Of a stretch of 31,694 nucleotides of DNA, positions 9,901 through 31,349 are shown in pieces. Positions within the stretch are counted from its first letter, which is position 1, and each line of letters opens with the position of its first letter. Made by a program: the position numbers and the translations under genes. Below the pieces are notes generated by a model. It did no database searches and was not told the DNA's origin. It saw nothing but the letters and a program-made list of their open reading frames with translations. The stretch comes from a virus, in the IMG/VR virus record IMGVR_UViG_3300046753_000233, positions 1-31,694 of that record; one strand, given 5' to 3'.

Positions 9901-10269
9901 TTAATTTTTAAAATAAATTTTCTTGTCATTACTGATGCTTTGTGCTAGAACATCCCACGCATCTTCAGATTTTGCATCTGGAGTTGGGTTAGGATCTTTA
10001 CTAGGTACAACATCACTTGGAGTCCCCTCCATTTTAGCTACTTTATAAGAAGAAATCTCATCTTCTAAAGTTGCAATGTATCCATCCTTTTCAACGATTT
10101 TGCCATTTAATTCAACGATAGCTTTGTTAGACTCTTCTATAGACTCTTCTAAAGTGTTCATTTTTTCAACAACAACATCATTATCAAGAATTTTTACTTC
10201 CTTTACATCTCCTTCCTTATTGAAAAGGTCAGAAATAAAAGTCTTTAAGTTATCAAACTCTTTTTCCAT
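9901..10269 (-). other. Possible separately translated scaffold from internal start Met377
   Basis: In-frame ATG at 10269 follows an A-rich stretch (AAAAAAGAAAGTAAA) like the leaders of other genes here. It would yield a 122-residue acidic coiled-coil protein beginning MEKEFDNLKTF. Phage lambda makes scaffold Nu3 from an internal start in the protease gene, which is the model. Nothing in the sequence proves use of this start. Confidence 0.3.
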
Positions 10270-11397
10270 TTTACTTTCTTTTTTAATGTTATTAAATAAA
10301 TTATTTACAAGAGCTTTATTCTTGTAATCATACTTGTTTATATCAAACCTTGCAGCAAGCTTAATTGGTTCTTCGATTTTATCTACAAAACCATACTTTA
10401 CTGCTTCAGCACTATCAAACCAAGTTTCTTCATTCATCCAAGAACGGATTTGCTCTTCGCTATTTCCTGTCTTAGACATATATATACTTACCAGCCTATC
10501 ACCCATTTTATCCATAAGTTCAGCTGCTTTTCTTAAATCACCTGCATCTCCAACTTCTCCTCCCCATACATTGTGTATCATATAAAGTGAATTTTCACTC
10601 ATTATAACTTCATCACCGGCAAGTGCTATAACACTTCCCATTGACGCAGCTATACCTTCTATACGAGTAGTCACCTTTTGTGGCATTCTGCTTATAGCAT
10701 CATATATTGCCAACCCATCTACTACAGATCCTCCTGGTGAGTTTATTCTTAAAAGAACAGATGTGTCATTTGGGATGTTTTTCATTTCATCTATAAAAGA
10801 TTTGGCATCAACCCCATATTTGCCAATCTCATCATATATCATTACTTCTGTTACGTTATCAGAAGCTACATTTTTAATATCGTACCAATTCATCTTTATT
10901 GAGTTTTTTATTTTGGCACTTACCTCATCATGCTCATGTTCATATGTAAAAAGAATAGTCATTTCTGTACCATCCTCATCTGTCTGTGTTACATATAATT
11001 CTCCTACATCATGTAAAGTAGCCATTTGAGCTTCAGTAAAATCATATTTATGATCATACTCTTCTCCTTTATATTTATATTTTCTTTTTTTTGCCACTCC
11101 GTCTATTTCTTTTAATTTAGCAATAGCCCAATTAACTCCACTTTTTCCCCCCCAACAATCGTACATTAATCCTCCACAACCTTCAGAATATGGAACATCT
11201 GCGTGTTGTTCGTGTCTTTTAAAACTAGCCATGCGTGCAATCGTTGAACGAGAAAGTTTTTCTCTTCGTGATAATTGTCCTGCACGAGTCCAGCCTACGC
11301 TTGTGCCACAAGAACTACCATTTTCTTCTTTATACTTTATTGCTCTCTTAGCATTATTAGTAGCAGATTGTGGATAGTCATTGTAGGTCTTAGCCAT
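9901..11397 (-). CDS. Head maturation protease fused to a scaffold-like tail (ClpP/S14 type)
   Basis: Three parts are visible in 498 residues. Residues 1-100 form a phage-protease-associated domain with GTSVGWTRAGQLSRREKLS, TIARMASFKRHEQHA and the 'GGLMYDCWGGKSGVNWAIAK' segment. Residues about 165-345 form a ClpP-type serine protease with INSPGGSVVDG, EGIAASMGS (probable nucleophile Ser252), LYMIHNVWGG (His275) and ETWFDSAEAVKYGFVD. From Met377 there is an acidic coiled coil (MNTLEESIEESNKAIVEL) and a Pro/Asp-rich end, like a scaffold. It would cleave scaffold and capsid during maturation. The position directly before the capsid gene supports this. The scaffold part may also be made alone from Met377. 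Confidence 0.8.
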   Translation of the reverse strand: MAKTYNDYPQSATNNAKRAIKYKEENGSSCGTSVGWTRAGQLSRREKLSRSTIARMASFKRHEQHADVPYSEGCGGLMYDCWGGKSGVNWAIAKLKEIDGVAKKRKYKYKGEEYDHKYDFTEAQMATLHDVGELYVTQTDEDGTEMTILFTYEHEHDEVSAKIKNSIKMNWYDIKNVASDNVTEVMIYDEIGKYGVDAKSFIDEMKNIPNDTSVLLRINSPGGSVVDGLAIYDAISRMPQKVTTRIEGIAASMGSVIALAGDEVIMSENSLYMIHNVWGGEVGDAGDLRKAAELMDKMGDRLVSIYMSKTGNSEEQIRSWMNEETWFDSAEAVKYGFVDKIEEPIKLAARFDINKYDYKNKALVNNLFNNIKKESKMEKEFDNLKTFISDLFNKEGDVKEVKILDNDVVVEKMNTLEESIEESNKAIVELNGKIVEKDGYIATLEDEISSYKVAKMEGTPSDVVPSKDPNPTPDAKSEDAWDVLAQSISNDKKIYFKN

Positions 11398-11461
11398 TTT
11401 TAATCTTTACAGCAATATAAGTCAATAAATTTTGATGATAATGGAAATTAGTGGAATAAAA

Positions 11462-11496
11462 TTTGCATATGTCGTTTTTGTTACGTTACATTGTAA
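11462..11496 (+). promoter_or_regulatory. Bipartite early promoter/operator, copy 1
   Basis: TTTG (11462-11465) is followed after 20 bases by the 11-base perfect palindrome TTACA-T-TGTAA (11486-11496), and the first early gene starts at 11517. The same arrangement, with the same 20-base gap, recurs at 16487-16521. TTTG plus TACATTG resembles a Bacteroidota -33/-7 pair. Alternatively TAAAATTTG (11457-11465) is the -7 element and the palindrome is an operator. This stretch lies in the 119-base divergent region between the late block and the early block. Confidence 0.5.
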
Positions 11497-11516
11497 TTCA
11501 ATCAATACATATAACT

Positions 11517-11876
11517 ATGAAATTCGAAACAAAAATATCAGGCAACAGCGTAACAGTTTTTAATGTTAGTAAAAAAAATCACGATACAGAAACAGATTTT
11601 TTAATAGAGTGGGTTTATGAAACAGAAATGAGATCTTGGGGTATCAAGGGTACATATTTATACATTAATAAAGTAGTTGGTGAGGTAGTGGTAGACTTTT
11701 GGGAAGAAGAAAACACTAGAAAACAAAGACATTTAATAGATAGTGATTTAGAAAATTACGATGGCACTAAATGGTCTGTAGAAATAGATGACAGTAATTT
11801 AAACTTCAAGAATCATATACAACCACAAGATTTATACATTGACTTTGAAAGTAAAATTATAACTGTAATATTTTAA
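11517..11876 (+). CDS. First gene of the early block, function unknown
   Basis: The 119-residue product starts MKFETKISGNSVTVFN. I place the start at 11517 because the longer frame from 11463 would cross the promoter/palindrome element. It is a beta-rich soluble protein with WVYETEMRSWGIKGTYLYI and then VVGEVVVDFWEE, many aromatic residues and an acidic end. No family is recognised. As the first early gene, directly behind the promoter, it may act on the host or on transcription, but nothing in the sequence shows this. Confidence 0.6.
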   Translation: MKFETKISGNSVTVFNVSKKNHDTETDFLIEWVYETEMRSWGIKGTYLYINKVVGEVVVDFWEEENTRKQRHLIDSDLENYDGTKWSVEIDDSNLNFKNHIQPQDLYIDFESKIITVIF

Positions 11877-11879
11877 ACT

Positions 11880-12182
11880 ATGAATTACGATAACTATAAA
11901 CTAAGCAATCCTATAGATGATAACTGTAACAATGTATTAGTAACTTCTTGTTGTGGTGTTGAAGAGGAGAATAGTGAAACAAGTAATTGTTGTGGCAGTA
12001 GATTTTGGGTAAACACTGATATTTGTGGTGAATGTAAAGAACACGCAGATGATTATATGGTTTGTACAGAATGTGGTGATGATGAAGATTCTTACACTAT
12101 GTTAGAACAATATGAATATGATCAAAAGATGAAAGACCATTATGATGAGATTAAATCAGATGGTTATAAAGATGAACGTTAA
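11880..12182 (+). CDS. Small acidic cysteine-rich (zinc-ribbon-like) protein
   Basis: The 100-residue product has nine cysteines: Cys16, the pairs 24-25 and 37-38, then CxxC at 49-52 (CGEC) and CxxC at 62-65 (CTEC). The last two CxxC pairs are typical of a zinc knuckle or ribbon. The C-terminal third is strongly acidic. Such proteins are common in early regions of marine phages and are usually unassigned; DNA or protein binding is possible. The gene starts three bases after the previous stop. Confidence 0.6.
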   Translation: MNYDNYKLSNPIDDNCNNVLVTSCCGVEEENSETSNCCGSRFWVNTDICGECKEHADDYMVCTECGDDEDSYTMLEQYEYDQKMKDHYDEIKSDGYKDER

Positions 12183-12196
12183 TTATAAATAAAACT

Positions 12197-12385
12197 ATGT
12201 CAAAAATTAAAGAATTAGTTCTTGAAGAACAAGAACGTCAAGCATACATTGAGAAATATTATTCTGCAATGTATACATCAGCTGAATACATGGGATTACA
12301 AGAGGTATTCGAAAAGCTGCATGAATCTAATATTAATTACAAACCAAAAAAAAATCAAAATTATGTCAAAAGAAACTCAAAATGA
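12197..12385 (+). CDS. Small helical early protein, unknown
   Basis: The 62-residue product starts MSKIKELVLEEQERQAYIEK and is predicted from its charge pattern to be mostly helical, with a basic end (KPKKNQNYVKRNSK). The A-rich leader (AATAAAACT before ATG) matches neighbouring genes. Its 3' end overlaps the next gene by 23 bases in another frame. No family is recognised. Confidence 0.5.
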   Translation: MSKIKELVLEEQERQAYIEKYYSAMYTSAEYMGLQEVFEKLHESNINYKPKKNQNYVKRNSK

Positions 12386-12761
12386 AATGTTAAAGAGATT
12401 GTTTATAGAAAACAACTTAGTTAAAGATGATGTTTTTAAACACAAATTTTATAACATAATTACTAGACAAGGTATAGACAAAATTATGGCTGCCAATAAT
12501 ATTGAAATACAATATGAAATAGTAAATTTGTCAGATGATCATACACATTGTTTAATAAAAGCATTAGGCAAAAAAGGTGATAGAATTATACAAACTTTTG
12601 GAGAGTGTACTCCTAAAAACAATAGCAATGCTTATCCTGTTGCAATGGCAGAAAAAAGAGCTAAATCAAGAATAGTTCTTACATTAGCTGGACTTTATGA
12701 AATAGGTTGTTTTGGAGAGGATGAAGCTGAAGACTTCAAAAGATCTAAAATTAATGGATGA
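12363..12761 (+). CDS. Conserved DNA-metabolism-associated early protein with 'AEKRAKSR' motif
   Basis: The start at ATG 12363 gives 132 residues beginning MSKETQNEMLKRLF. It has ITRQGIDKIMAANNIEI, then a beta region (YEIVNLSDDHTHCLIKAL) and the segment YPVAMAEKRAKSRIVLTLAG, followed by GCFGEDEAEDFK. I recall this 'YP-AMAEKRA-R-hhLKL-G...E-E' layout from hypothetical proteins near replication genes in marine and Bacteroidota phages. Some Rad52/ERF-like annealing proteins have a similar AEKRA-SR helix, but the match is too thin to name a function. An earlier in-frame ATG at 12222 would overlap the previous gene almost completely and was not used. Confidence 0.6.
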   Translation: MSKETQNEMLKRLFIENNLVKDDVFKHKFYNIITRQGIDKIMAANNIEIQYEIVNLSDDHTHCLIKALGKKGDRIIQTFGECTPKNNSNAYPVAMAEKRAKSRIVLTLAGLYEIGCFGEDEAEDFKRSKING

Positions 12762-12996
12762 AAATGATTGGATAGATGAACTACTAGAAGACGAACCATC
12801 TTCCTTATGGCAAATAGGAAAGATAGAAAGTCTTCTAGTAACATCAGGTGCTAATTATTTGTATGAGAATATAAATTTAAATGAATTAACATATTATGAA
12901 GCAGAAGAAATTATCAAAGACCTCTGGCAGAATGACTGCCCTAGAGATCCTAGAGATCAATTTGAAAGAATGCGAAGAGGGGGAATGTTTGAATAA
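12754..12996 (+). CDS. Small acidic early protein, unknown
   Basis: The 80-residue product starts MDENDWIDELLEDEPSSLWQ, with its start overlapping the previous stop (ATGGATGA). It contains IGKIESLLVTSG and ELTYYEAEEIIKDLWQN, a helical 'Q-x-x-KIE-LL-TS ... EAE-II' pattern found in small Bacteroidota phage proteins near recombination genes. No function is known to me. The earlier ATG at 12712 is possible but less consistent with the overlapping arrangement. Confidence 0.55.
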   Translation: MDENDWIDELLEDEPSSLWQIGKIESLLVTSGANYLYENINLNELTYYEAEEIIKDLWQNDCPRDPRDQFERMRRGGMFE

Positions 12997-13441
12997 TTGG
13001 CAAAAGACAAGAGAGATAGTTAGAATAAACAAACAATTTGTTGAAGACATTGTAATTGTAGATAAAGATAGGTACATACCATTAGAACATTATATTGATT
13101 TTTTAAATGTAATGCCAGAACATTTATGGTGTTTAAATCCAGTCTTTTACTATAATTCTGATATACCATGTTGGGATGGTATAGGTTTCTTAGGCGAAAA
13201 AATACACAAATCAACAGTTAGAACTAAATATTTACAGTTATGTTTTGACAAGCTTGATATTAGTATAACTGATGTTTTAGATAACAAGGAAGAAATGTTT
13301 ATTCATATTGAGAACAATAAAGAAAGATTTTTGCACGCAATAAAATATCTAAAAAATAAATTAAGTATACAAGAATTAAAATATATATATATTAAATCTA
13401 AAAAATTAAGTGATGAAAAGTTTATCATTGAGCAGTACTGA
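12932..13441 (+). CDS. Early protein of unknown function
   Basis: The start at 12932 gives 169 residues beginning MTALEILEINLKECEEGE. It overlaps the previous gene by 65 bases, the longest overlap in the block, so the true start could be a later codon. The protein has CLNNWQKTREIVRINKQFV, an aromatic middle (LWCLNPVFYYNSDIPCWDG) and a helical end (AIKYLKNKLSIQELKYIYI). It lies just before the DnaA-like gene and overlaps it by 29 bases. No family is recognised. Confidence 0.5.
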   Translation: MTALEILEINLKECEEGECLNNWQKTREIVRINKQFVEDIVIVDKDRYIPLEHYIDFLNVMPEHLWCLNPVFYYNSDIPCWDGIGFLGEKIHKSTVRTKYLQLCFDKLDISITDVLDNKEEMFIHIENNKERFLHAIKYLKNKLSIQELKYIYIKSKKLSDEKFIIEQY

Positions 13442-13802
13442 AGAATCAATAATTCAAATTATAGAGGTTGTTGGTGATTATAAATTAAGAACTCTTAGAA
13501 GTAAGAACAGAGAGCAAAAAATACAACTTACTAGAGCAATTCTAGGAGTAGTTTTATATGAAAATAAAACAACAATAAAACGCATAGGTGAAATTATAAA
13601 TAGACATCATGCAACAGTTTTACATTATATGCAGCACCATAAAGACAACTTAGATTACTACCAGGAATATAAAGAGTTATATTATCAGGTTAAAGATGAA
13701 TACAGAACAGGCTATAGAAGAGCTAAAGTTGATATAATGGAACAACAAATAAAAGAGCTACAGGACTCTATAAAAACCTTAAAAGTAAATTTAAATAATT
13801 AA
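13413..13802 (+). CDS. DnaA domain-IV-like DNA-binding protein
   Basis: The 129-residue protein resembles only the C-terminal DNA-binding domain of replication initiator DnaA. Residues about 35-75 contain LTRAILGVVLYENKTTIKRI (basic loop and helices) and then GEIINRHHATVLHYMQHH. The latter corresponds to the DnaA signature R-x-H-[ST]-T-V-L-H that reads the DnaA box. The AAA+ ATPase domain is absent. The C-terminal third is a charged coiled coil (EQQIKELQDSIKTLKVNL) that may dimerise the protein. It could bind the phage origin, displace host DnaA or act as a regulator. The neighbouring primase-helicase supports a replication role. The start is ATG 13413, with a GTG directly upstream as the alternative. 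Confidence 0.7.
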   Translation: MKSLSLSSTEESIIQIIEVVGDYKLRTLRSKNREQKIQLTRAILGVVLYENKTTIKRIGEIINRHHATVLHYMQHHKDNLDYYQEYKELYYQVKDEYRTGYRRAKVDIMEQQIKELQDSIKTLKVNLNN

Positions 13803-13816
13803 TTAAACTAAATATT

Positions 13817-14083
13817 ATGAGTGATAAAAAGTATGTAAACGGCATTATTATTAAAGAAAAAACTTTTGATAATGGTGGTACTCAATTAAAAATGAGTATA
13901 AAAAAAGACGAAGTAATTCAACAATTAAATGAACTTGAAGATAATGGTTGGATAAATCTAATTATAGCAAGAAGGCAAAACCCAAGTGATACAGGAATAA
14001 CACATTATACTTATGTGGATACTTGGAAACCTAGCAAGAAAAAATCTGTAGAAGTAGGATCAGAAGATGATTTGCCATTTTAA
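13817..14083 (+). CDS. Small protein with SSB-like acidic C-terminal tip
   Basis: The 88-residue product starts MSDKKYVNGIIIKEKTFDNG and ends GSEDDLPF. The final acidic DDLPF mimics the DDDIPF tip through which bacterial SSB recruits replication proteins. The body has short beta strands (GGTQLKMSIKK, WINLIIARRQ), is too short for a full SSB OB fold, but could be a reduced one. It lies between the DnaA-like gene and the replication genes. ssDNA binding is inferred from the tip and context; the DNA-binding surface is not identified. Confidence 0.6.
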   Translation: MSDKKYVNGIIIKEKTFDNGGTQLKMSIKKDEVIQQLNELEDNGWINLIIARRQNPSDTGITHYTYVDTWKPSKKKSVEVGSEDDLPF

Positions 14084-14094
14084 TTAACAAAAAT

Positions 14095-14163
14095 AGTTGG
14101 GGGGTAGCCACTACGGCAATATAATAATAATACTATTAAATGTTTTTTGCCCCCCTACTTTTT
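14095..14163 (+). promoter_or_regulatory. Structured leader/attenuator-like element before the replication genes
   Basis: Inside the 96-base gap before the helix-turn-helix gene, AGT (14095-14097) plus GGGGGG (14099-14104) pair with CCCCCC (14150-14155) plus ACT (14157-14159). TTTTT follows (14159-14163). The 45-base interior holds two more small inverted repeats: GCC/GGC (14107-14109/14115-14117) and TAATA/TATTA (14125-14129/14134-14138). Together they suggest a folded RNA, either a terminator with an ornate loop or an attenuator controlling the primase-helicase. The pairing was found by eye. Confidence 0.4.
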
Positions 14164-14179
14164 ACAAAACAAAACTAAT

Positions 14180-14782
14180 ATGAGTGAAGAACCAACTTAT
14201 TGGGCAACTCTGCCTGCTAATGTAAGATATAGTGATAAGCTAACACCATTAGAAAGATTACTATATGCCGAGATAACATGTCTAACAAACTATAAAGGTT
14301 ATTGTTGGGCAACTAATGCTTATTTTAGTAAATTATTTAATAGACATCCTAAAAGTATAAGTAGAAATATACAAAGTCTAGTTCAGCATGATTTTATTAA
14401 AATAAAACTTGTAAGACAAGGTAAGAATGTTGAAACTAGGATTATACAAGTAGTTGATACCCCTCCACAAAAATGTTACCCCCCCCTCCACAAAAATGTT
14501 ACCAATAATAACAAAAAAGAAAAAGATAAGTTATTTCTTGAGTTCTGGGAAGCATATAATTTTAAAAAAAGCAAAAAATTATGTTACAATAAATTTATGA
14601 AATTAAGTTTAGAAACTTGTGAAAAATGTGTAACAGCTGCTAAAATTTATACAGAATCAATAACTGATACTAAATTTAAAAAACACCCAGCAACTTGGTT
14701 AAATCAAGGCTGTTGGGATGATGAAGTTATTATAAATGACGGCAAAATTAAAGGTGGTAAGTATGATGGTATGGTTTTTTAA
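14180..14782 (+). CDS. Winged-helix replication protein (DnaD/RepA N-terminal type)
   Basis: The 200-residue protein starts MSEEPTYWATLPANVRYSD. The frame is open further upstream only through the hairpin element. Residues 8-95 form the winged helix typical of phage/plasmid replication initiators: LTPLERLLYAEITCL, CWATNAYFSKLF, PKSISRNIQSLVQHDFIKI. A low-complexity hinge (TPPQKCYPPLHKNVTNNN) encodes a duplicated DNA repeat. The C-terminal part has FLEFWEAYNFKKSKKLCYNK and HPATWLNQGCWDDE, the short DnaD-like/replisome-loading tail seen in such proteins. It directly precedes the primase-helicase gene and probably loads it on DNA. Confidence 0.65.
   Translation: MSEEPTYWATLPANVRYSDKLTPLERLLYAEITCLTNYKGYCWATNAYFSKLFNRHPKSISRNIQSLVQHDFIKIKLVRQGKNVETRIIQVVDTPPQKCYPPLHKNVTNNNKKEKDKLFLEFWEAYNFKKSKKLCYNKFMKLSLETCEKCVTAAKIYTESITDTKFKKHPATWLNQGCWDDEVIINDGKIKGGKYDGMVF
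14461..14503 (+). repeat. 23-base-period tandem duplication with C8 tract inside the winged-helix gene
   Basis: The 20 bases at 14461-14480 recur exactly at 14484-14503, giving a period of 23 bases. The period is not a multiple of three, so the two copies are read in different frames (PPQKCY and then PLHKNVT). The junction is a run of eight C (14479-14486), rare in this AT-rich DNA. It lies in the hinge between DNA-binding and C-terminal parts, where length change is tolerated. Confidence 0.75.
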
Positions 14783-14791
14783 AATATAAAA

Positions 14792-16486
14792 ATGACATTT
14801 ACTGATTTTAACATTGAAATAAAAAGAACTGCTGGACAAGTAAAAACAAAATGTCCAAAATGTTCACATGATAGAAAGAAAAAAACAGATCCATGTTTAT
14901 CTGTTAATATAGATGAAGGTGTCTGGAATTGTCACAATTGTGGATGGACAGGTGGTTTAAAAAAACAAAACAAATATATGCAAGAGATAAAATATGTGTT
15001 GCCTGTAAACAAACCAGAGAAAGAATATTCTGATAAGTTTATAGCTTGGTTTAAAAGTAGAGGTATATCAAAAAACACTATACTAAAAAATAGAATTGCA
15101 GAAGGCAAGGAATATATGCCACAGATAGGAAAAGAAGTTACAACTATTCAGTTTAAATATTACAGAGATAGTTCACTTATTAATATAAAATACAGGGATG
15201 CTGCAAAAAACTTTAAACTAGTAAAAGACGCAGAACGTATTATGTATGGTCTTGATCATTTGATAGGTAAAAAACAAGCTATAATTGTAGAGGGAGAAAT
15301 GGACAAGCTAGCTTTTTATGAAGCTGGTTTTGAAAATTGTGTTTCAGTTCCTAATGGTGCTAGTAATTTAAAAATGGAATATTTAAATGATTTTGCTACA
15401 AACTTTGACAAAGTGTTTTTAGCTGTAGATAATGATGAGCCAGGTCTTAAATTACAGGAAGAATTGTCAAGAAGAATAGGTAGAGATATATGTTATAGGG
15501 TTAATTATTTTGAAAACTGTAAAGACATTAATGACGTTTTAATTAATCATGGTGTTTCTGGCGTAAAGTCTTGTATAGATAAAGCACAGCTGTATCCTCT
15601 TGAAGGTGTTTTAAATGTTAAAGATTTTGATATTGATATAGATAGTCTTTTTGAAATTGGACTTAACAAAGGTCAGACTGTAAATCATAATAACTTTGAT
15701 AATCTTTTTAGTTTTGCTAGCTCACAATTAACAGTAGTTACAGGCATACCTACACATGGTAAAAGTAATTTTTTAGAACATATATGTATGAGGTTATCAA
15801 CTTTACATAAATGGAAGTTTGGTGTATTTAGTCCAGAACATTATCCTATGCAATTACATTTTTCTGTTTTAGCTGAAAAGCTTATTGGTAAAAGCTTTAG
15901 AAATAATACAAAATATGAACGCATGTCTAAATCAGAATTACACATAGCAAAAGAATTTATTTCTGATTATTATCATTGGATAAGACCAGATGGAGATGTG
16001 TACACGATAGATGCTATTTTAAATTCAGCTAAACAATTGATCAGAAGACATGGTATAAATGCCTTAATTATTGATCCGTATAACAAAATTGATGCTAACA
16101 TTGGATCTCAAAATGAAACAAATTATATAAATAAATTTTTAACTAAACTAACAATATTTAAGCAAAAATATGATATACATATATTTTTAGTAGCTCACCC
16201 TAGAAAAATGCAAAAAAAAGATAATGGCCTGTATGAGATACCTACTTTATATGATGTTGCTGGTAGTGCAAACTTTTATAATCAAGTTGATAATGGTATA
16301 TCTGTATACAGAGATTTTAAAAATCAATTGACAAGTGTCTATGTGCAAAAGGTTAAATTTAGACATATTGGAGAATTAGGAGAAGCTCAGTTTAAATATA
16401 ATATACAAAACGGCAGATATGTTGAGGTAGGCGAACACCTTGATAATCAATCATATATAGAGGTTGAACAACAAAGTATGTTATAA
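14792..16486 (+). CDS. Primase-helicase (T7 gp4/Twinkle type)
   Basis: The 564-residue protein would prime and unwind DNA at the phage fork. The N-terminus has a zinc-binding domain (Cys21, Cys24 in CPKC; Cys47, Cys50 in CHNC). A TOPRIM domain follows with IIVEGEMD (Glu167, Glu169) and FLAVDNDEPG (Asp213, Asp215). The C-terminal RecA-like/DnaB helicase part has Walker A VTGIPTHGKSN (Lys324, Ser325), Walker B NALIIDPYN (Asp428), the HIFLVAHPRK sensor strand and the QVDNGISVYRD loop. All core motifs look intact. It follows the winged-helix gene by 9 bases. No DNA polymerase is encoded in this window, so it must work with host enzymes or an unseen gene. Confidence 0.88.
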   Translation: MTFTDFNIEIKRTAGQVKTKCPKCSHDRKKKTDPCLSVNIDEGVWNCHNCGWTGGLKKQNKYMQEIKYVLPVNKPEKEYSDKFIAWFKSRGISKNTILKNRIAEGKEYMPQIGKEVTTIQFKYYRDSSLINIKYRDAAKNFKLVKDAERIMYGLDHLIGKKQAIIVEGEMDKLAFYEAGFENCVSVPNGASNLKMEYLNDFATNFDKVFLAVDNDEPGLKLQEELSRRIGRDICYRVNYFENCKDINDVLINHGVSGVKSCIDKAQLYPLEGVLNVKDFDIDIDSLFEIGLNKGQTVNHNNFDNLFSFASSQLTVVTGIPTHGKSNFLEHICMRLSTLHKWKFGVFSPEHYPMQLHFSVLAEKLIGKSFRNNTKYERMSKSELHIAKEFISDYYHWIRPDGDVYTIDAILNSAKQLIRRHGINALIIDPYNKIDANIGSQNETNYINKFLTKLTIFKQKYDIHIFLVAHPRKMQKKDNGLYEIPTLYDVAGSANFYNQVDNGISVYRDFKNQLTSVYVQKVKFRHIGELGEAQFKYNIQNGRYVEVGEHLDNQSYIEVEQQSML

Positions 16487-16521
16487 TTTGTATATTTAAA
16501 AAATTAATTGTTACATTGTAA
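16487..16521 (+). promoter_or_regulatory. Bipartite early promoter/operator, copy 2
   Basis: TTTG (16487-16490, part of TATAATTTG) is followed after 20 bases by the palindrome TTACA-T-TGTAA (16511-16521), the same design as at 11462-11496. It lies in the short gap after the primase-helicase gene. The ATG of the next gene follows the palindrome after one base, so if TACATTG is the -7 element the message would start after that ATG. An operator role, or a later start codon, would resolve this. Confidence 0.5.
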
Positions 16522-16522
16522 T

Positions 16523-16720
16523 ATGATTTATGCACCAATTTTAATGATTATAGTTTCTATGACAATAGGAGCAGCTTTAGGTGCCATAGGCATGTTATAT
16601 ATAAATTATAAAGAAATAAAAAGCCTAGAAGAAGAACTCGATAAATTTAGAGATTTGTATTTTGAAGAAATGGATAAGTGGCGAAACAAATATATTGATG
16701 ATGGCCATAATTTTTATTAA
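16523..16720 (+). CDS. Small single-pass membrane protein
   Basis: The 65-residue product starts MIYAPILMIIVSMTIGAALG. One hydrophobic segment covers residues 3-27, and a charged helical domain follows (KEIKSLEEELDKFRDLYFEE). The small size, an early position and the N-terminal TM suggest a protein that acts at the host membrane, but no family is recognised. The start chosen is the first ATG, which touches the palindrome; Met8 or Met13 would be alternatives giving a longer leader. Confidence 0.5.
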   Translation: MIYAPILMIIVSMTIGAALGAIGMLYINYKEIKSLEEELDKFRDLYFEEMDKWRNKYIDDGHNFY

Positions 16721-18585: not shown

Positions 18586-18958
18586 GTATCCATATCCTCC
18601 TATGGCAAAACCTAGGATGACAAGAGCTGACAGCTGGAAAAAAAGACCAATAGTTTTAAAGTATTGGGATTTTAAAGATCACATAAAAAGCTGGGCAATA
18701 AGAGAAAACTTTAAATTAGGAAACGAAATATATGTTATTTTTCATATACCTATGCCGAAGTCCTGGAGTAAGATTAAAAAAACACAGATGATATTTGCTG
18801 ATCATCAACAACGTCCTGATGTTGATAATTTATTAAAAGGTCTAATGGATGCTTTGCTTGAGGAAGATTCTCACATACACACTGTTTATGCAAGAAAAAT
18901 ATGGAGTAATGAGGGTTCTATAGAGTTTTACAGAAAAACTAGTCTTCTTCTCTCTTAA
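18578..18958 (+). CDS. rusA: RusA-type Holliday junction resolvase
   Basis: The 126-residue protein is the usual RusA size and resolves four-way DNA junctions before packaging. PPMAKPRMTRADSWKKRPIV matches the family N-terminal loop. HIPMPKSWSK corresponds to the 'P-P-x-SWSK' strand. QQRPDVDNLLKGLMDALLEE (Asp81, Asp83, Asp91) holds the metal-binding aspartates and the dimer helix. It is the last gene of the early block and overlaps the previous gene by eight bases. Its 3' end overlaps the oppositely oriented last late gene by 20 bases. Confidence 0.85.
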   Translation: MIKYPYPPMAKPRMTRADSWKKRPIVLKYWDFKDHIKSWAIRENFKLGNEIYVIFHIPMPKSWSKIKKTQMIFADHQQRPDVDNLLKGLMDALLEEDSHIHTVYARKIWSNEGSIEFYRKTSLLLS

Positions 18959-18977
18959 TATTATAATGCTTTTCTGT
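18930..18977. terminator. Possible bidirectional terminator at the early/late convergence
   Basis: ACAGAAAA (18930-18937) is matched by TTTTCTGT (18970-18977), giving an 8-base AT-rich stem with a 32-base loop. It lies exactly where rusA and the oppositely oriented gene overlap. On the plus strand TTTTA follows. It is the only inverted repeat seen between the converging operons, but it is weak and could be chance. Confidence 0.25.
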
Positions 18978-19262
18978 TTTATATCTTTGCTTATAAATAA
19001 TATTTCTACACTGCTTCTCAGTAATATTATGCCTAATCGATATATCTATAAAAGTTTTACCAATATGACCTTGATTTTCTATAATGTATTTATCAAAGTC
19101 TTTAAACATCATGTAATTTCTTAATGATTTTGGAGCTATAATACCATTCTCTACAAGATGATAAACTAAATCTTTTACAGTATAGTTTTTTCCCCACCTA
19201 ACTTCAGACTCATCACCAATAATGCTTATAAACTCGTCTACAACAATTTTACTGTTTGGCAT
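18939..19262 (-). CDS. Last gene of the tail block, unknown (HTH-like C-terminus)
   Basis: The 107-residue product starts MPNSKIVVDEFISIIGDESE and has KNYTVKDLVYHLVENGIIAP. Its end has IDISIRHNITEKQCRNIIYK, which looks like a helix-turn-helix (ten-residue turn, then a recognition-type helix). It directly follows the zinc-ribbon gene (stop TAA and then ATG). Being last in the late operon, it may not be a virion protein. The HTH reading is by eye. Confidence 0.45.
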   Translation of the reverse strand: MPNSKIVVDEFISIIGDESEVRWGKNYTVKDLVYHLVENGIIAPKSLRNYMMFKDFDKYIIENQGHIGKTFIDISIRHNITEKQCRNIIYKQRYKTEKHYNIKREED

Positions 19263-19502
19263 TTATTTCCATAAGTTTTGTGGACACTTTATAAAATCTT
19301 CATCGATTCTATTTTTAGATTGTAACATGCAACCACAATCACCACATCTTTCAAGGATTTCTAAAGCTAGTGGTTTTTGATAAACACCACACTTATTGCT
19401 TCTACAAATTGATAATCTTTTTTCAAATTTTTTATCACTAGCTAATTTTACACCTTCGCCAATAATAATTTTCCAGAATAGTTTTCTTAAATCTTTAAAC
19501 AT
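19263..19502 (-). CDS. Small zinc-ribbon protein next to the tape measure
   Basis: The 79-residue protein starts MFKDLRKLFWKIIIGEG; the upstream in-frame TTG at 19508 would add two residues. An amphipathic helix at 1-20 is followed by Cys33, Cys38 (CRSNKC), Cys53, Cys56, Cys58 (CGDCGC) and Cys73 (KCPQNLW). This fits the recurring phage zinc-ribbon 'C..C....C-x-x-CGC-L...CP-x-x-W'. It follows the tape measure by 21 bases, a place where small tail or baseplate accessory proteins are common. Confidence 0.6.
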   Translation of the reverse strand: MFKDLRKLFWKIIIGEGVKLASDKKFEKRLSICRSNKCGVYQKPLALEILERCGDCGCMLQSKNRIDEDFIKCPQNLWK

Positions 19503-19523
19503 AGTCAAATATATATATAATTA

Positions 19524-23499: not shown

Positions 23500-26400
23500 T
23501 TAATAGTTATTATTTCTATTGTTAATGTTTTGTGTGTTTCTTGTGCTTTCTGAACTTTTTTCTTCTTCTCTTGTGTATAATTTTTTTAAATCATTTTCTT
23601 CAGTATATAACAATGTGCAAATTGTTCCATCAGCTTCTTCGACAACAAGTTCGCATCCATGTAGTTCAACTTTACCATTGTTATCAACAGTAAAAGCGTT
23701 CTCTATAGATTTTAATTTTGATTTTACCTCTACAGTTGCATATGTTTTAGATTTTGGTACAGCATCGTCTTTACCATTATCTTCTTCAGCTTCTACTGGT
23801 GGATTTACGTTTGGATCTACAAATAAAGATCCAGTTGGACTTGCATAATTAGCATCATACTTCCATTCAATAAGCTCAACTTTTGTTAATTGATTATTGT
23901 TTGGTTTGTAATCTTTTATAGACTGTACAGTCCAATATGTAGAAACATCATCTATTTTTAAATGTATTATATCTCTATAATCAAAATTATTTATATCTAC
24001 AGCGTTTAATGCCATATTACAAGTTCTTACTAAGGCACCACCATTCATTTTATCGTATGCGTTTTTCCAATATTTTGTAAATAGTCCAGGACTTACATAA
24101 CCAGAACCATCATTATAGTCATCCCATGATAAATTAAATTCATCTCTACTAAAACCTTTTTTCCAGCCGTTTATCCAACCTAAATGTGGGTATCTACTTG
24201 TTGTAAATATTGTACCATCTCCTTTTCTAAAATCATATGGTGTAGTTTCTTGTACTCCATAATAATTTAATATTCTTAATTTAAATTTTGGTGTTGGATT
24301 GTATGCTGGTCTTCCGTAACCATTAATAACTCCACCTTCATCATTCCACATGACTGGCATTAAAGGATTTTGTCCAACATTATCAGCAGGACTATTCCAA
24401 GATAAATCACCCCATGCATAGGCACCTGGAGCATATGGATGATCAACAGAGTTTACTTTTGGGTTTGGTTGTAAACCATAATTATTAAACCTGTATGTGT
24501 TACTAAAAATCTTTGTTCCAAATTGCAGTGTTTCTCTTCTAAATCTTTTCGTATTTGTTTCTGTATAAGATTTATACTCATTTAAATCGTTATCTTCTCT
24601 CCAATTATATAAGCTTTCTAATCCATTGTCTGATGTATCTCTTTGATAATTAAAGTTTACGCTTTGTGCTAGCTCTACAGCTATAAATTTGTCTTCCCAA
24701 GACTTTTTATCTAATCTAGTAGTCCAGTCTATAACTTTACCAGAACCAAAAAAAGTGTCATATGGCTCTACATATACTACTCTTTGTTCTTTATCAGCAA
24801 ACCATTGTAAATTAAACAACTCTGTAAGTCCTTTTAAATAATCAGTTTGTTTAGTGCAAGGTAAAACTTTTGAAAGGTTTATGAATTGATCTGGAACAGT
24901 GTTTGAAACTAAAGGAAATGCTAAAAACTTCATGTGTGAAGCATCACACCACATAGCAAAAGTTGAGTCATTATTGTAACCGTGTATTCTATATGCTAGA
25001 TGATCACCAGCATTACATACTACATTAAAAGATTGTGTGTCAGGTATACCGTCATAAACTCCATTATCGTTATCAAAAACTTTATGAGCAATTGCTTCTA
25101 CTTGGCCGTTTTTCATTAATTCAATTTGTAGCCAGCTATAACCACCACTAGACAATATATTGTCACTAATATATAAAGTACCGTGTAAATCAACTTGGTA
25201 TGTTCCTGCAAATGGTGTTGTGTAACCTTGATTAGAAGCGTTTTGTGACCAGTTATTTCCTAAGTTTACACCAGGAACTAAATTAGGATACCAATAACCG
25301 TGTGTTCTATTTCTTTTTAGTTTACCTCCAGATGAAAACGTACCACCACAAGGAAACTTATCGTTTAATTCTACATTTGCATATTGACTACCTTCACTAC
25401 CAAATAAATCATCATCGGCATAACTTTCTCCAGAAGAGTAAGGGTGGCACAATCTTTTAAATGTTTCTGATTCTATAAAATTACTACTTATAGAGTAACC
25501 TATTGTATCAAATATTTTTTTAATTAGTCTATAAGCAAATATAACAGGATGAAAGTCATTGCTGTTATGATTAAAATCAGCTGCATTTACACTATTAGCA
25601 TGCCATTGACCATAATTAATTAAACCATAAAAATAATCTTTTCCTGTTGGTGGTGATCCCCACTGAAAAAATATGTTACCATCTCCAAATAAATTTCTAT
25701 CTAAGTTATTTTTAAAATCAATAATGTTTTCACCGTCAACACTATCTACAGGTGAATGATACCATGAGTTTATTATAGATGCAAAACTTTTTTTAATATC
25801 TAAACCATCACCAAATGGTACTTGACATATTTCACGATCTTCTAATAAGTGTTTCCAATCTACAGAATCATCTATTATATGACAAGAGTATTTACCACCA
25901 TTGCCAGTTATACCTTTTTCCACCCTCATAAGGCCTTTAAAGACATTAACTCCATTAACGCTAACCCTACAAGGCATCCAGTCAATTTTTTCTTTTATAG
26001 AGCCTACAGCAAGCATTGGCGTTAGTATTCTATTATTATGACTGTTAGCTGGTACCTCAAAAGTTTTACTGTATGCTGTTGTTCTTTTTGATAGATCTTT
26101 TAAATTACCAACAGAATAGGTAAATGCTAAAGGAAGTGTTTCACTTTTAAATAAATCTAAATAATCCCATTGATATTGATCTACAGAATAATTTATTTCA
26201 GTAGCCATTACAGGAACTGTAGAGGTAACTATATCAGAATCTCTTTTAGTAATTTTTATATAGTCAAGAGTTATTCTTGCAGGTATATTTTCATCTATTG
26301 CTTTGGCATTTAAAATGTTTATAGATCCATTAGAAGCGTGAAAATGTCTACTGTTGTCCATTGGCAATACACCACCATTAAGTGCAGTATGACCAAAAAC

Positions 26401-30322: not shown

Positions 30323-30903
30323 AAAAAAGCGACATCCCATATCGTTGCCATGTCTAATTTTTCGAACATTTTAGCTCGTTTATCTATAAGATCATCATTT
30401 AATCTCTCGTCTTCTCCCTCTTTTTTGCACAAAATAGCTAATTGTCTAGGCATATAGCTAATATGTCCATCTTGTATCAAGTTTGATTGTAATTCTAACT
30501 GTTCTGCTTCTATATATCTTCCAAAACTAGATTTACGCATCAAATCTTTTGGTAAAAAAAACTCTTCTTCACCAATTTTAAAAGAGCTTATGTCAATTGG
30601 TTGATATTTTTGATTTACAAATGATAGCGTTTTCATTAAATCATTCGCTTCAACCAAATCCCAATGAGAAACATCTTGTAAGCTAACACCTGTCCAATAA
30701 GACAAAACCTCTGTATTATAGTCCAATTGCATTATAGTTTCTCTAAACTCAAAATCATCATCTGGGTTTTCCTCTTTATAAGTTTCTATTTTCTTTGTAT
30801 GCTTATCTATAAGCTTTGTAAAACCATAAAATCTTTCCCAAGTTACTTCCAACCATGACTCAGGCAATACTATCGCCTTGTCATTCATTGTAAAATCTTT
30901 CAT
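30229..30903 (-). CDS. Tail-assembly chaperone, short form (G-type)
   Basis: The 224-residue protein starts MKDFTMNDKAIVLPESWLEV. It is helical and charged, with WERFYGFTKLIDKHTKKIE, LMRKSSFGRYIEAEQLELQS and MPRQLAILCKKEGEDERLND. The last is the 'A-IL-kkeGE' signature of gpG-type chaperones. Residues 189-194 (WDVAFF) lie at the slippery T run, after which the normal frame ends with QEVAMQKLQEQQKVQ. It would act in the cytoplasm during tail assembly and not stay in the virion. The genes after it are tail genes. Its 30903 start shares a base with the previous stop. Confidence 0.65.
   Translation of the reverse strand: MKDFTMNDKAIVLPESWLEVTWERFYGFTKLIDKHTKKIETYKEENPDDDFEFRETIMQLDYNTEVLSYWTGVSLQDVSHWDLVEANDLMKTLSFVNQKYQPIDISSFKIGEEEFFLPKDLMRKSSFGRYIEAEQLELQSNLIQDGHISYMPRQLAILCKKEGEDERLNDDLIDKRAKMFEKLDMATIWDVAFFLNKLEQGLLTSFLISQEVAMQKLQEQQKVQ
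30322..30328 (-). promoter_or_regulatory. -1 ribosomal frameshift slippery heptamer T TTT TTT
   Basis: On the minus strand nine T (30328-30320) follow GC. The zero frame reads GCT-TTT-TTT-TTG. The last T of GCT plus two TTT codons form the canonical X-XXY-YYZ slip site T-TTT-TTT, and a shift of -1 leads into the downstream frame TTT-GAA-CAA. No stop interrupts either frame near the site. The position near the end of the G-type gene matches lambda G/GT. Confidence 0.6.
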
Positions 30904-31307
30904 TAATTTAAATTTATATTCATATTATTTTCGGTAGAGGGATATATAACTATGCTTTTATTAAGTTCCTCAAGTACAGACACAGTCAAAGATAACAATT
31001 TTTCTTCTACATCGTCAATATCTTTTTCTTGATATAATAACAAGCTATTAAAATAACCTTTTGTCGCCCAGTATAAATTATTTGGCAAAGAAATGTACCA
31101 TTCTCTTGCATTAACAGTACCATCTAAACAATACTCACCTAGTCCATTATGAAATGTTATAACATTATCAATCAAATTTTGATAACCTACATAATCTTCA
31201 TTAAAAAAAGTGGCACTGTAAACAAGTTCTGCCATATCGTCTAAATAGTTATTTACAATAACAGAATGTTGCTTATTTAGATAATATATTTCTTGTTCAC
31301 TAGCCAT
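30903..31307 (-). CDS. Small protein after the large terminase, unknown
   Basis: The start at ATG 31307 (AAAATGGC, as in other late genes) gives 134 residues beginning MASEQEIYYLNKQHSVIVNN. The longer frame from 31322 would run into the candidate promoter. The protein is helical and acidic (YLDDMAELVYSATFFNEDYV, KDIDDVEEKLLSLTVSVLEE) and soluble. Its place after terL and before the chaperone suggests a head-completion or packaging accessory, but no family is recognised. Confidence 0.5.
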   Translation of the reverse strand: MASEQEIYYLNKQHSVIVNNYLDDMAELVYSATFFNEDYVGYQNLIDNVITFHNGLGEYCLDGTVNAREWYISLPNNLYWATKGYFNSLLLYQEKDIDDVEEKLLSLTVSVLEELNKSIVIYPSTENNMNINLN

Positions 31308-31308
31308 T

Positions 31309-31349
31309 TTACAATATAACAAATATACTTTGGAAATTTATGGAACAAA
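31309..31349 (-). promoter_or_regulatory. Bacteroidota-type promoter for the tail block
   Basis: On the minus strand TTTG (31349-31346) is followed after 18 bases by TATATTTG (31327-31320), an exact TAnnTTTG. TTATATTGTAA (31319-31309) follows directly and differs from the early palindrome TTACATTGTAA in one base. The gene start at 31307 lies only 13 bases after the -7 element, so the 5' leader would be very short. It sits in the 54-base gap between terL and the next gene. Confidence 0.5.

Follow-up and report, generated by a model that had tools for sequence, protein, structure and literature searches.

We analysed a 31,694-nucleotide stretch of viral DNA (IMG/VR record IMGVR_UViG_3300046753_000233, positions 1 to 31,694; hereafter the window) and focused on a bipartite element that occurs twice on its plus strand. 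In the two copies, TAAAATTTG (11457-11465) and TATAATTTG (16482-16490) are each followed by 20 bases, the palindrome TTACATTGTAA (11486-11496 and 16511-16521) and a T. The first copy precedes the first early gene (11517-11876 (+), 119 amino acids), and the second lies behind the primase-helicase gene (14792-16486 (+)) and directly before a gene for a small membrane protein (16523-16720 (+)). The late strand, on the other side of the first copy, carries the gene for the head maturation protease (9901-11397 (-); PHROGs head maturation protease, E=9e-73), which is the first gene of the head operon. A third site lies near the end of the window, where TTATATTGTAA, a one-base variant of the palindrome, stands at 31309-31319 (-) behind TATATTTG and ahead of a gene of 134 amino acids located past the terminase gene (30903-31307 (-)). 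The original prediction had placed the copies, their 20-base spacing, the trailing T and the variant exactly. It had regarded the copies as a conserved signal, either the operator of a phage regulator or a phage-specific class of promoter.

The occurrence of two copies is not a chance event. TTTG-N20-TTACATTGTAA is found twice on the plus strand and never on the minus strand of the whole record, and the looser pattern TTTG-N20-TTAYATTG, also observed twice, had a mean of 0.07 and a maximum of 1 in dinucleotide shuffles. The palindrome alone, with up to two mismatches, occurs 32 times against 39.6 expected, so the signal is the pair at its fixed spacing and not the palindrome. We scanned viral contigs with the primase-helicase and obtained 80 loci with 58-97% protein identity. 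The bipartite element recurs behind the helicase stop codon in many of these loci with different spacer letters, and it is likewise conserved before the first early gene. Among 193 unique TTAYATTGY boxes, TTTG stands at gap 20 in 38 and at the neighbouring gaps in 0-2. Elsewhere it is near zero, except for 12 cases at gap 26 that correspond to the TTTTTG before TTCCA at the late sites L-B and L-C (see below). Among the matches listed for TTTG-N20-TTACATTGTA in viral contigs, most were due to chance, and none were used as evidence.

Bacteroidota promoters consist of a -33 TTTG and a -7 TAnnTTTG (PMC7366714, PMC6847099). At the same place in distant relatives we found TTG-N20-TATAATTG, TTG-N20-TACATTTG, TTG-N20-TATCTTTG and TTG-N19-TATATTTG, in which the canonical Bacteroidota boxes TACATTTG, TATCTTTG and TATATTTG occupy the -7 slot at a spacing that is equal or one base shorter. 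Measured from one TTG to the next, the spacing is 28 for both the 7-base box (TACATTG) and the 8-base TACATTTG and TATCTTTG, and 27 in loci L057 and L074. These distances place the palindrome in the Bacteroidota -7 slot and make TAWAATTTG an extended -33 element (AATTTG), the reverse of the earlier assignment of TAWAATTTG as a -7 element with a palindrome downstream. From this arrangement, TTTG-N20-TTACATTG is predicted to be a single bipartite promoter. Its -33 TTTG and TTG-to-TTG distance resemble those of Bacteroidota sigma-ABfr promoters, whereas the box in the window is TTAYATTGY and not TAnnTTTG, which itself appears only in the distant relatives L053, L057, L074 and L079.

In the first predicted early promoter, E1, the -33 TTTG at 11462-11465 (+) (extended AATTTG from 11460) is identified by the gap-20 statistics, and the -7 box TTACATTGT at 11486-11494 (+) is kept before the first early gene of the relatives. 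From the published position of the box at -12 to -5, transcription is predicted to start at about 11498-11499, giving a leader of about 18 nucleotides. In E2, the -33 TTTG (16487-16490 (+)) adjoins the helicase stop codon, and the -7 box TTACATTGT (16511-16519 (+)) is kept 3' of the helicase in relatives. The start of E2 is predicted at the A of the ATG at 16523 or one nucleotide away; this ATG lies 4 nucleotides past the box (3-4 in relatives), so the mRNA of the small membrane protein would be leaderless. Two more early-type promoters, at 25156 (-) and 22566 (-) of relative G008 (locus L220), precede other small early genes.

We also considered TTACATTGTAA as the palindromic site of a phage repressor or other regulator, lying behind a promoter whose -7 element would be TAWAATTTG. 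In favour of such an operator, both copies in the window are perfect palindromes and neighbouring sites are near-palindromic. However, of the 66 unique sites that are followed by an open reading frame, only 10 are perfect palindromes. The right arms drift (TGTAT, TGTAG, TGCTT, TGCAA) without compensating change, and a TTATA left arm was paired with a TATAA right arm in 0 of 43 cases; the arms are thus neither both kept nor co-varying. In addition, the slot is filled by TACATTTG, TATCTTTG or TATATTTG in relatives, and TAWAATTTG is one base longer than TAnnTTTG, with its first T conserved in only 58%. This arm variation led us to reject the operator, which we consider very improbable; the palindromic look would be incidental to a -7 box. 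The other half of the original proposal, a class of promoters specific to the phage and used for the timing of transcription, is well supported by the conservation, spacing, strand and gene context of the element. We hold it to be probable, a judgement that covers the favoured explanation as a whole, that both copies are early promoters with a -33 TTTG, 20 bp and a -7 TTACATTGT, read by the RNA polymerase of a Bacteroidota host, and that a late class with its own upstream element accompanies them.

The third site shares the -7 box with the two copies but belongs to another class. It is preceded by TTCCA-N5-TTCCA, which had been overlooked, and a second such site lies at 11456-11413 (-). We predict that these are late promoters, in which the -7 box is common with the early class and TTTG is replaced by TTCCA, giving TTCCA-N21-TTATATTG. 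At the putative late promoter L-A, on the late strand where the first early gene and the protease gene diverge, a distal TTCCA (11452-11456 (-)) and a proximal TTCCA in the -33 slot (11442-11446 (-)) stand ahead of TTATATTG; the -7 box is TTATATTGC (11412-11420 (-)), the start is predicted at about 11408, and the protease gene is the predicted target. At L-B, the TTCCA in the -33 slot (31341-31345 (-)) is followed 10 bp downstream by a second TTCCA (31331-31335 (-)) and by the -7 box TTATATTGT (31311-31319 (-)), which is the third site. The ATG of the 134-amino-acid gene, the first behind L-B, is 4 nucleotides past this box, again predicting a leaderless mRNA. L-B recurs at the same place past the terminase gene in the complete relatives and in G361. 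The complete relatives have the late pattern at both places seen in the window, and also a single TTCCA at the 21-bp distance before the terminase operon, a place outside the window.

The distance between TTCCA and the box is tightly restricted, with gaps of 11 (n=11), 21 (n=34), 31 (n=22) and 14 (n=7) and at most one case at any other gap. The gaps of 11, 21 and 31 indicate that successive TTCCA elements lie on a single face of the DNA. Distant relatives carry longer arrays of up to four TTCC units (L055), in which TTCC-N22-box is kept and the box is TATAATTG, TATTATTG or TATTTTTG. Nearly all matches to TTCCA-N16-TTCCA came from one conserved coding stretch within the helicase gene; those that did not, in L022, L039 and L042, belong to longer late arrays. 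Matches to TTCC-N6-TTCC in G353, G354, W02 and W03 lacked a correctly spaced -7 box.

The two classes are separated by the genes that they precede. In a non-circular, gene-anchored test on non-redundant sequences, we searched the 130 bases that lead up to the head protease gene and the region that follows the helicase gene (shuffled means 0.02-0.36). TTCC-N22-box was present before the protease in 22 of 26 sequences (shuffled mean 0.12), where the early type was absent (0/26), while the early type was present behind the helicase in 29 of 46 (shuffled 0.36), where the late type was absent (0/46). At the late anchors, only the gaps 22 and 32, which are 10 bp apart, were populated to any degree, and the early -33 element stood at its spacing in none of the 26 late sites. 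Each complete near relative has one to three early and two to three late sites. The early sites are on the early strand, with the sole exception of one match in G007 that has no open reading frame behind it; the late sites are all on the late strand, and nearly all of them precede structural or terminase genes.

The -7 boxes of the two classes shift jointly by lineage, the early/late pairs being TTAYATTG/TTATATTG, TATAATTG/TATWATTR and TATATTTG/TATTTTTG, the last of which is the canonical sigma-A box TAnnTTTG. The -33 elements stay as the boxes change, so that TTG or TTCC marks the class. The boxes match within a lineage, and the simplest reading is that one RNA polymerase holoenzyme serves both classes, TTCC being contacted by another factor at the late promoters.

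We hypothesized that the early promoters fire unaided and that an early-made phage DNA-binding protein would then sit on the TTCC repeats, where it could stand in for the -33 contact and bring the same polymerase to the late operons. The late class is best read as promoters in which the -33 element is replaced by a conserved phage element and the -7 box is kept, by analogy with T4 middle promoters or Mu Pm. In T4, the MotA box is substituted for the -35 element and the host -10 stays, but the MotA box is single, at -30, and AsiA is needed (PMC2988021); here TTCC recurs at 10-bp intervals, and no counterpart of AsiA is known. At Mu Pm, the site of the activator Mor likewise takes the place of the -35 element and the host sigma factor is retained, although the sites bound by Mor are inverted repeats of 5 bp with their centre at -43.5 (PMC4390567) and the repeats of the late class are direct. 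The late repeats have another parallel in geometry. Lambda CII promoters contain direct TTGC-N6-TTGC repeats around -35, a geometry equal to that of TTCC-N6-TTCC; no sequence relation is claimed.

TTCCA in the -33 slot at a fixed spacing could also be recognised directly by a sigma factor, either an alternative one or one modified by the phage, with no separate activator. The SM5 promoters of F. psychrophilum (box TAnnTTGY) are assigned to an alternative sigma factor (PMC9723704). Nevertheless, no sigma-like protein was found among the early proteins of the window that were tested, and in the complete relative G006 the extra genes scanned gave no match to a sigma factor or an RNA polymerase. 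The repeats at 11, 21 and 31 bp are also more readily explained by a separate protein that binds cooperatively than by a single sigma region 4. We consider this sigma-factor explanation unlikely.

Slightly less likely still is a replication origin, in which the TTCC arrays would be iterons bound by a phage DnaA domain-IV-like protein and would resemble promoters only by their neighbourhood. Such a protein is universal in the clade, the longest arrays coincide with the divergent early/late region, and the late repeat unit TTATTCCACA of several relatives (window 11442-11456 (-)) approximates the DnaA box TTATCCACA with one extra T. On the other hand, each genome has two to three separate sites before late operons, all of them at exactly 21 bp from a -7 box, and DnaA-IV-like proteins are present also in phages without arrays. 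Canonical DnaA boxes were scattered without a cluster. The protein, encoded at 13413-13802 (+) in the window, has a long C-terminal helix and is our second named candidate for the activator, or else a replication protein. It occurs in 18 of 18 records searched and matches Bac_DnaA_C in 32 of 32 relatives, the window protein itself scoring 30.1 bits against a cut-off of 31.5. Its structural model has a predicted local distance difference test (pLDDT) score of 90 and a template modelling (TM) score of 0.85, by target length, to the DNA-binding domain of M. tuberculosis DnaA (3pvp). The recognition motif is RHHAT in the window and near relatives and RDHST in many others. From DnaA structures we take these to be the base-contacting residues, and they vary while TTCC does not.

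The leading candidate for the TTCC-binding late activator is a helix-turn-helix protein of 107 amino acids (18939-19262 (-)). Few proteins of the family are as strongly conserved: it has 26 invariant columns in 27 sequences, and was present in every clade record tested and absent from three cultured phages and two outgroup records without TTCC arrays. A weak match to Pfam Mor (PF08765) was found in 11 of 27 members (best E=0.007, none above the cut-off), and a fold search with its model gave no PDB match below E=1. Its gene is the last of the late tail operon. The P2 ogr gene sits at the end of a tail operon too, a likeness to the Ogr late promoter system in position for which no sequence relation is claimed. 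In rough order of likelihood, the activator may be the 107-amino-acid protein, another early protein or, least likely of the three, the DnaA-IV-like protein, and each assignment is tentative. Right before the 107-amino-acid gene, a cysteine-rich protein of 78-81 amino acids (19263-19508 (-)), conserved in all relatives, has a weak match to the Com zinc ribbon. An early protein of about 150-180 amino acids (12986-13441 (+)) is also conserved, with a core around WDALGFLGEKIH and no match in Pfam or PHROGs.

Several observations weigh against a host-read promoter code with a phage activator. The relatives share common descent, so their counts are not independent; mere inheritance of one stretch is nevertheless unlikely because the spacers, the downstream genes and the boxes have all changed. 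Upstream of the 107-amino-acid gene we found no early-type promoter, so that its synthesis in time is hard to account for. Across 347 regions upstream of genes in two Flavobacteriaceae genomes, TAYATTGY was not enriched (6 versus 6.8), whereas TAHHTTTG was, with a strand bias (83 sense, 32 antisense, 20 shuffled). Of 296 genomes of the order, none contained TTTGG-N19-TTAYATTGTA more than once. An exact-pattern test in 41 Flavobacteriaceae genomes gave similar numbers of N20 and N23 matches, with low power, as the canonical control was nearly flat (6 versus 4).

The lack of enrichment of the phage box in the tested Flavobacteriaceae makes the sigma factor or the true host uncertain. The true host may be a different one, the phage may rely on a minor class of host promoters such as SM5, or the early promoters may also be helped. 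The phage box resembles that of SM5 (PMC9723704) in its letters: T or C follows TTG in 66 of 66 phage sites linked to an open reading frame. The cultured Flavobacterium phage tooticki6-1 carries TTTGGTAGTATCAAAATTAGTCGTATATTTG, the canonical-box counterpart of the early promoters of relatives such as TTTGGTAGTCTCAAATATTTGTCTTTATATTG (G008).

The position of the start codons points to leaderless transcripts. ATG stands 3-5 nucleotides past the box at 33 of 66 sites, never at 6-10, and mostly at 14-31 in the rest. The short distance recurs across unrelated downstream genes (window 16523 (+) and 31307 (-); L004, L010, L036 and others). In F. johnsoniae, transcription starts 4-5 nucleotides behind the box (PMC6847099), and half of the phage mRNAs are therefore predicted to be leaderless. 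In F. psychrophilum, leaderless mRNAs account for only 5.5% (PMC9723704).

On balance, we consider somewhat more likely than not an explanation drawn from sequence comparison, in which a phage activator on 10-bp-phased TTCC repeats in the -33 slot redirects the Bacteroidota RNA polymerase, the two-class early/late code extends family-wide in these uncultured marine phages, the -7 box can follow the host and many mRNAs are leaderless. In the literature that we searched, no late-promoter code is described for Bacteroidota phages that rely on the host polymerase. If the explanation is true, the early and late genes of this uncultured marine phage family would be separable from raw sequence, and a small set of proteins is named as possible activators that would act on the unusual sigma factor of Bacteroidota. 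Further gains would be promoter parts ready for use and, in a phylum that lacks Shine-Dalgarno signals, a clear example of predicted leaderless translation.

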